Of a DNA stretch of 46,062 nt, positions 17,800 to 19,396 are shown piece by piece. Positions within the stretch are counted from its first letter, which is position 1, and every line of letters begins with the position of its first letter. The position numbers and the translations under genes were made by a program. The notes below the pieces were generated by a model. The model worked only from the letters and a program-made list of their open reading frames with translations. It searched no databases and was not told where the DNA came from. Source of the stretch: an uncultured bacterium (GTDB lineage Bacteria > Patescibacteriota > Minisyncoccia > Moranbacterales > GWC2-37-73); the NCBI GenBank assembly GCA_903861715.1, contig CAIOVI010000016.1, forward strand, positions 1 through 46,062. The letters are read 5' to 3'.

Positions 17800-17842
17800 G
17801 ACTCGAATGATTCGAATGTTCACTCGAATGACTCGAATAAAT
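17800..17842. repeat. R7 repeat (ACTCGAATG units) at the porG start
   Basis: Four ACTCGAATGA-type units followed by AATAAATTA. The ~45-nt block is about 90% identical to 31591-31635 at the smc start. In both cases it ends within about 10 nt of the start codon on the minus strand. Confidence 0.75.
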
Positions 17843-17927
17843 TATAACTCTTCGTAAAGTCTTTACTATCTTTTTCTATTCTAGCATATTTTTTGAAATT
17901 CAGCACGCCCAAAAAAATTAAATTTTT

Positions 17928-18596
17928 TTATTTGAGCTTAATATTGATAGTTGGCGTACCTTTTTTTTCATTGTATTTAATTTCAACCTCACCAATTTCA
18001 GCGATATTTTTTACATGCGTCCCACCACAAGGAATTTTAAATCCGAGACATTCCCACCAGCGAAATCCTTCTTTTTCAGGATCGGAATAAGTCCTGACTT
18101 CCGCTCCCACAGCAATAGCCTCACAAAAAATTTGATTTGTTTTTTCAATCAAGTCTTGCGTTATCTTGTTGCTTTCATATCTGTTAAAAGCAAAACCATC
18201 CTGAATATCTGAAACTTTTGGAACTGGCAATTTTTCACCTGCTGTTTTTTCCAGCAGGCAGTGATGCAGATGAACTGCCGTATGCAATCTCATTTGTTTG
18301 TTGCGAAATGCCCAGTTTAATTTGCAAAGCACCTCTTGCCCCTTATTTTCCTCTGGAATTTTTTCAGCCATTATCAACAAAATTCCATTTTCATTGTAAG
18401 GGTCTTTTGTGGTGCCAATAACATCGTAATTTACACCTTCGATAGTCAAAATTCCCTTGTCACCCTTCTGCCCACCACCACGAGGATAGAAAATATTATC
18501 CGCGACCTGAACACAGTTTTGATCATTCTCCACAAATACACCCGCAATTGTAGTTTTAATTTCTTTTAAATACTGGTCTTCGTAAAATTTTTGCAT
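17928..18596 (-). CDS. AlaX-type alanyl-tRNA editing hydrolase
   Basis: A 222-residue free-standing trans-editing enzyme that hydrolyses mischarged Ser- or Gly-tRNA(Ala). The zinc ligands are in HTAVH (residues 105-109) and in CGGTHV near residue 190. The N-terminal FYPRGGGQKGDKG is the conserved glycine-rich segment of AlaX-M/AlaRS editing domains. It lacks an aminoacylation domain. Length fits AlaX-M. The start is an ATG at 18596. The upstream gap (18597-18859) holds the hammerhead ribozyme on the same strand. Confidence 0.9.
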   Translation of the reverse strand: MQKFYEDQYLKEIKTTIAGVFVENDQNCVQVADNIFYPRGGGQKGDKGILTIEGVNYDVIGTTKDPYNENGILLIMAEKIPEENKGQEVLCKLNWAFRNKQMRLHTAVHLHHCLLEKTAGEKLPVPKVSDIQDGFAFNRYESNKITQDLIEKTNQIFCEAIAVGAEVRTYSDPEKEGFRWWECLGFKIPCGGTHVKNIAEIGEVEIKYNEKKGTPTINIKLK

Positions 18597-18771
18597 AGCG
18601 TTATTTCATATTATATTATTATAAATAAAGTAAAATAGTTTTTTTTAATTTTCTCTTTCAATATTGTCAATAAGCAAAAAGCTCTCCATCGCTTATTTAT
18701 TTGTGCTATTTTTTCTTTTTTATTTGTTACATAAAATTTTTTCATTAAAATATTATTATTTAAAATCAAGT

Positions 18772-18820
18772 CCCTTTCGCCGTTTTCGGCTCATCAGTTC
18801 GGATGCACATCCGAAGAGGT
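18772..18820 (-). ncRNA. hammerhead ribozyme
   Basis: On the minus strand all core elements are present in order. CUC gives the cleavage nucleotide C17 at 18816, and U16.1 is at 18817. Stem I is UUCGGAU-gugc-AUCCGAA (18815-18798). CUGAUGA is at 18797-18791. Stem II is GCCG-aaaa-CGGC (18790-18779). GAAA is at 18778-18775, with A15.1 able to pair U16.1. Stem III starts with two G-C pairs (18774-18773 with 18819-18818). It can extend outward (UUG/CAA, then UUUAAAA/UUUUAAA) across an inserted hairpin GGGCAUUC/GAAUGCCC (18823-18846). Predicted cleavage is between 18816 and 18815, about 44 nt after the stop codon of the small gene at 18860. Confidence 0.8.
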
Positions 18821-18859
18821 TTGGGCATTCAAGAATCTGAATGCCCGCTTTTAAAAAAA

Positions 18860-19156
18860 TTACACTTCTCTAACTTCTTTGTAATGCTTCATTGCCTCCA
18901 TTACAAGCTTTCCTTTTAAAATCTCAGAAACGTTAACGAACTTCAAAGAGCAATGCCCTGGTCTGTTTTTCGGAGTAGCCGACCAGCCACCAGCAGTTCT
19001 CCTACCAGCTGCCTTTTGAACAAATTCAGCAAGAATGTTTTTTTCATCCTTCTGAGTGCATTCCTCAGTCGCTGCTATAATAAAATTTTCTACTTCGACT
19101 GAAAAATCATTTTTGATTACCACTGTAATTACCGATGTTACGCTTTTTTTCAACAT
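18860..19156 (-). CDS. small conserved-looking protein, unknown
   Basis: A 98-residue soluble protein. The first half is strand-rich (SVTSVITVVIKNDFSVEVENFIIAATEE). The middle has a basic glycine-rich segment (AAGRRTAGGWSATPKN), and the C-terminus is helical. I chose the ATG at 19156 (MLKKSVTS); the frame continues upstream into a terminator, which is not coding. No family recognised. It sits alone between a terminator (19197-19232) and the hammerhead ribozyme, whose outer stem begins right after this gene's TAA. Its mRNA 3' end would be trimmed by the ribozyme. Confidence 0.55.
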   Translation of the reverse strand: MLKKSVTSVITVVIKNDFSVEVENFIIAATEECTQKDEKNILAEFVQKAAGRRTAGGWSATPKNRPGHCSLKFVNVSEILKGKLVMEAMKHYKEVREV

Positions 19157-19196
19157 GCTGCATTTATTTTTATGTTGATTGTAAAATATAAAGAAC

Positions 19197-19232
19197 AAAA
19201 AAAACCGACCCCTCAAAGGTCGGCTTCTTTTT
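19197..19232. terminator. Rho-independent terminator
   Basis: CCGACC-cctcaaa-GGTCGG with A-rich and T-rich flanks on both strands. It ends the transcript of the thioredoxin-fold gene on the minus strand. A weaker related hairpin (CCGGC/GTCGG) lies at about 19281-19301. Confidence 0.7.
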
Positions 19233-19396
19233 GCAAGTTCTGAGATTTAGCTCGAAAGCTTTTCACACCTGGCAAAAACAAACCGGCCTTGAAAGTCGGC
19301 AAGCCAAGCAAAAGAAAACGAAAATAATTTTTGGAATTGTTTTTGCAACATATTAAATCAATGATATCAAACTAATCTTTTTTGTCAATTGCCTGC

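Follow-up and report, generated by a model that had tools for sequence, protein, structure and literature searches.

The window analysed here, a stretch of 46,062 nucleotides from an uncultured bacterium of the Patescibacteriota (contig CAIOVI010000016.1), poses the question of whether the minus strand between a small gene and alaX carries a genuine hammerhead ribozyme and, if so, what its cleavage would do there. An earlier note, made from the letters alone, had proposed a hammerhead at 18751-18860, and that observation is confirmed by the sequence and its relatives; the interpretation attached to it is partly supported. Read along the minus strand, the region contains the TAA of the small gene (18862-18860), a U-rich stretch, a hairpin, AAACCUC, stem I, CUGAUGA, stem II, and GAAAGGG. 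An exact search for the core string gives one occurrence in the window and none in 100 shuffles.

The type III hammerhead with its flanks spans 58 nt of the covariance model (18766-18823, minus strand, as are all features below). Stem I is the hairpin UUCGGAU-GUGC-AUCCGAA (18798-18815, strands 18815-18809 and 18804-18798), followed by the core C3-A9, CUGAUGA (18791-18797), and by stem II, GCCG-AAAA-CGGC (18779-18790, strands 18790-18787 and 18782-18779); both stems are assigned from sequence and from covariation in relatives. The core GAA and A15.1 (18778-18775) together with the 3' strand of stem III occupy 18773-18778; stem III pairs with 18817-18819, U16.1 being at 18817. Cleavage is predicted from the sequence to follow the CUC triplet, between C17 (18816) and U (18815). 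Every core nucleotide that the note had named is present (C3-A9, G12-A14, A15.1-U16.1, H17), with stems I and II closed by loops and stem III open, as in type III. Stem III is as short as had been stated: its core is three pairs, U16.1-A15.1 plus exactly two C-G pairs, where at least two beyond U16.1-A15.1 were looked for. Immediately 5' of stem III is the hairpin GGGCATTCA-GATTCT-TGAATGCCC (18823-18846), which is identical in the sister species G002 and has the same layout in most relatives. The note had placed this hairpin inside an extended stem III closed by an outer UUUAAAA. We rejected this, since the outer complement is absent in G002; the hairpin is a separate element 5' of the ribozyme.

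The Rfam type III model, RF00008, scores the window copy at 28.7 bits (E 6.6e-4 in a scan of 801 bases, 2.5e-4 in the whole genome), below its gathering score of 48.5 bits, which is a curation threshold rather than a biochemical criterion; by the yardstick that the earlier note had set itself, a covariance-model hit above threshold, this result formally counts against the ribozyme. Two relatives in G002 score above gathering, and the RF00008 match of the window copy is on its own suggestive only. We also scored the window copy with an independent family model, R2, a covariance model made from 36 sequences of which none comes from the genus of the window. With R2 the window copy reaches 55 bits, with E-values of 2.5e-13 for 85 kb and 3.8e-12 per genome, and the G002 ortholog reaches 55.5 bits. 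Most relatives score higher than the window copy. All stem positions form standard pairs across the 36 sequences. Stem I, which had been left free in the DNA pattern that gathered the first set of relatives, is paired in 100% of them, with compensatory changes at six of its seven pairs, and no control shuffle reached the observed covariation score. Homology of the window copy is backed by covariation in R2. A chance resemblance with no function could be read into the low RF00008 score, but it is contradicted by the R2 E-value (~4e-12 per genome), the covariation and the conservation of the ortholog, and is highly improbable. On this comparative evidence, the hammerhead is a real conserved RNA structure of a known ribozyme class, with predicted cleavage.

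The same evidence makes the window hammerhead a member of a family scattered through the Patescibacteria. With RF00008 type III the window copy has in common the closed stems I and II, the open stem III, the CUGANGA/GAAA core, and the NUH triplet. The family differs in its stem I, consistently of 7 bp and with a GUGU-like loop, and in its very short stem II with a RAAA loop, and the window copy differs further in its sub-gathering score and in a short stem III that has a separate hairpin ahead of it. The genome of the window holds two copies, the second on contig C21 (41.3 bits with RF00008), and two sister species hold six and two. Among 131 genomes of the order, matches are limited to the genus of the window. 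When R1, a model from genus sequences, was run, 28 of 384 class genomes and 44 of the 380 genomes sampled from the phylum gave matches. Part of the motif, consisting of the core, stem II, and one side of stem III, was also scanned at the DNA level through 84,980 species, and the 47 loci so obtained have titles that are nearly all Patescibacterial or lack a lineage name. Among the few other titles is a Phycisphaerales contig, which is probably a binning error because its hammerhead and flanks are identical to those of a Wolfebacteria contig. Since the scan pattern was derived from this lineage, the restriction to the phylum may be partly a matter of ascertainment.

Position 7, the U or C in CUGANGA, is a tolerated position of the hammerhead core. 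Among 118 distinct family members the core reads CUGAUGA in 103, CUGACGA in 8, and CCGAUGA (U4C) in 6, so that CUGANGA is found in 111 of 118. GAAA is present in all 118, and position 17 is never G, as would be expected if NUH cleavage is selected. The U4C variant recurs at loci L006, L049, L055, L096, L123, and L127 in hammerheads that are otherwise intact. Enlarged stem II insertions were seen in hammerheads beside matching array genes of two different genomes (L063 2938-3540 and L057 4511-5111).

Across the family the order is hairpin, hammerhead, often a boxA-like motif, and then the next small gene, frequently in arrays with tandem copies ~500-800 nt apart. Several hammerheads thus flank single genes in the family; the window copy is single. 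The upstream ORF commonly ends ~30-60 nt ahead of the element, and the one that follows begins ~20-60 nt after it. Of 74 members, 38 have a hairpin of at least eight pairs directly 5', where 3.1 would be expected, and a further set of 39 members has 19 against an expected 1.6. Downstream, a boxA-like motif resembling GTTCTTTNAAA, called at nine or more matches out of 11, follows 37 of 78 members (4.9 expected) and 16 of 39 further ones (1.5 expected); no such site follows the window hammerhead. The motif resembles the boxA consensus GYTCTTTAANA published for gamma-proteobacteria (PMC5725501). Boxes of this kind near start codons of mRNAs are known among boxA/Nus-factor sites, and the family motif differs in lying directly after a self-cleaving ribozyme, an arrangement for which we found no paper in the open-access literature; the two papers there that mention hammerheads together with boxA do not concern natural hammerheads. 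Similar motifs follow promoters in the rRNA leaders of several Patescibacterial genomes, which is supportive rather than decisive. The boxA identity of the post-hammerhead motif is one that we infer, because the rRNA leader of the window's own genome matches weakly.

TrmB-like genes are present in 31 of 99 loci, nearly always upstream of the hammerheads (for example L083, L063, L068, L074, L080, and L087). The 29 genomes examined whole hold 42 hammerhead clusters, of which 14 have a TrmB match no more than 5 kb upstream (0.64 expected), seven divergent and seven on the same strand, and none has one within 5 kb downstream. These genomes were picked for holding hammerheads, a choice by which the distance test is not biased. 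Near the window locus there is no TrmB gene.

Bacterial hammerheads number in the hundreds, and some form clusters flanking single genes in prophages; tandem examples cleave in vitro and one from A. tumefaciens cleaves in E. coli (Perreault et al. 2011, PMC3088659). Like the prophage clusters, the Patescibacterial family has tandem hammerheads between small genes on long transcripts, for which splitting into single-gene mRNAs is proposed (PMC3088659). It differs from them in that its contigs show no consistent phage genes, and often a boxA-like motif follows the ribozyme and a TrmB-like gene lies upstream. Genes adjacent to the hammerheads mostly lack known families. No structural phage family stood out among the families listed, and 116 ORFs beside hammerheads include one integrase. 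We considered a phage or defence role for the associated genes and set it aside, as PHROGs, PADLOC, NCBIfam, and Pfam gave no consistent family. IMG/VR viral contigs (L018-L042) have the same 5' hairpin and hammerhead between genes; the hairpin is found in 17 of 31 viral copies (1.8 expected) and the boxA-like motif in none of the 31. A search confined to the open-access journal literature returned no paper on hammerheads in Patescibacteria, Parcubacteria, or the candidate phyla radiation. What appears new is the Patescibacterial family itself, its layout of hairpin, hammerhead, and boxA-like motif, and the TrmB link; clustered hammerheads flanking single genes were already known.

In the window, the gene ahead of the hammerhead (18860-19156) encodes a protein of 98 aa with no known family. 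It has no Pfam or PDB match, and the one relative found is its ortholog in G002, at 53% identity. Its AlphaFold model, with a mean pLDDT of 46.5, was too unreliable to be used. The small gene is preceded by what may be a leader-peptide attenuator (19197-19388), conserved in G002. A promoter-like TTGACA-16-TATCAT (19361-19388) matches at 11 of 12 positions and is followed by a Phe-rich leader peptide ORF of 33 aa (19247-19348), also kept in G002, where the leader DNA is 86% identical. This ORF overlaps the putative antiterminator arm (19272-19288), which would compete with an intrinsic terminator (19197-19231) likewise kept in G002. Just past the U-tract of the attenuator is TGTTCTTTATA (19187-19197), kept in G002 as well, which is boxA-like and may function as such.

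Aligned to G002, the small gene is 72% identical, the hairpin proper 100%, and the 58-nt hammerhead span 89.5%, with no convincing similarity beyond the 3' edge of the hammerhead. In G002, the leader, small gene, hairpin, and hammerhead directly precede porG. Species G001 and G005 have dsbA and then porG, without the small-gene unit; G004 has a different gene at this place, and in G003 porG is preceded by other genes. Sites lacking the unit were counted in three sister genomes. The alignment of G001 with G002 resumes at G002 position 760, just past stem III by a few bases. From these site contents and this junction, the small-gene unit is variable within the genus, with a 3' edge that coincides with the hammerhead; either gain or loss could account for it. 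The dsbA-porG interval as a whole (window 17824-19396) is a variable gene site, its contents differing among six species of the genus. A second orthologous locus (C22 of G002 and C2 of G003) has a gene 81% identical after the hammerhead and unrelated genes before it, and the upstream gene of G003 resembles (53%) a gene between two hammerheads on C7 of G002. This pattern fits a swapping of gene units whose edges carry hammerheads, whether through homologous recombination or otherwise. The genes beside the hammerheads include no consistent recombinase.

We think it likely that this is a genuine type III hammerhead of a Patescibacterial family for RNA processing between genes, whose local role is most likely to form the 3' end of the mRNA of the small-gene unit. 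The hammerhead would cut the RNA during transcription, leaving the small-gene mRNA with a hairpin and a short tail bearing a 2',3'-cyclic phosphate and giving the downstream mRNA a hairpin with a 5'-OH as its start. Nus factors acting at the boxA-like site of full-length members could keep RNA polymerase going after the cut. What the comparisons show directly is the sequence itself, its covariation and conservation, how the family is laid out, and the variable presence of the unit; cleavage, protection of the end, and boxA function are what we infer. The window hammerhead is the 3' terminus of a genus-variable unit of promoter, leader-peptide attenuator, boxA-like site, and small gene, and would detach that unit from whichever gene follows. 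For the family at large we hold more tentatively, and at somewhat less than even odds, that hairpin, hammerhead, and boxA-like site split long, TrmB-linked operons of rapidly evolving small genes into single-gene mRNAs while polymerase stays processive, and that hammerheads also sit at gene-swap boundaries.

The earlier note had given cleavage another purpose, mainly to free an alaX mRNA with a 5'-OH leader. AlaX is indeed the next annotated gene on the strand (start 18596), yet the G002 unit has no alaX and stands before porG, and nothing in G002 corresponds to the 169 nt that separate the hammerhead from alaX. The absence from the G002 unit rules out alaX as a conserved partner, makes its release a very improbable purpose, and leaves the upstream small gene as the partner with which, in the comparison, the hammerhead is associated.

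A more serious alternative to 3'-end formation is that a family member arrived with the small-gene unit and that its catalysis no longer matters at this locus. Stem III is short and the window copy has no downstream boxA-like site. The ortholog in G002 has the U4C change, by which activity may be weakened or lost, and the element lineage may for that reason be decaying. Against such a relic, the hairpin and ribozyme are more conserved than the adjoining gene, the window core is intact, and U4C recurs in 6 of 118 members with the other core parts intact. We judge the relic unlikely, with a real chance that the window copy is weakened; 3'-end formation of the small-gene unit is the role that the comparisons best support. 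Hammerheads could also mark the boundaries of mobile cassettes, or tandem copies could yield circular or spliced RNAs as in retrozymes. Variable presence, the gene replaced upstream of a conserved hammerhead (G002 C22 against G003 C2), the right junction within ~10 nt of the hammerhead, and the spacing of tandem copies would all suit this, but integrases and reverse transcriptases show no consistent linkage, only one copy lies in the window, and Perreault et al. looked at bacterial tandem copies without detecting circular or spliced products (PMC3088659). We regard it as improbable.

The role of prokaryotic hammerheads was described as open in a 2017 review, which also noted the small non-conserved ORFs that adjoin them (PMC6155905), and the present family addresses that question. 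With many genera, a fixed position relative to genes, a hairpin, a boxA-like signal, and an upstream regulator, it offers a testable model in which operons would be punctuated by ribozyme cleavage, with antitermination coupled to it. The family points as well to a variable Patescibacterial gene pool whose proteins mostly lack a known family. A second dispersed repeat, with no Rfam match, likewise follows stop codons and precedes the next gene. It consists of a GGYCGACTT...AAGTCGRCC hairpin and then an imperfect TCCATC...AAATGGAGAA hairpin, and was seen at L014 (4064-4162 and 4526-4618), L016 (2133-2199), L015 (3459-3530), and, as the reverse complement, L017 (2886-3015 and 3895-3970).
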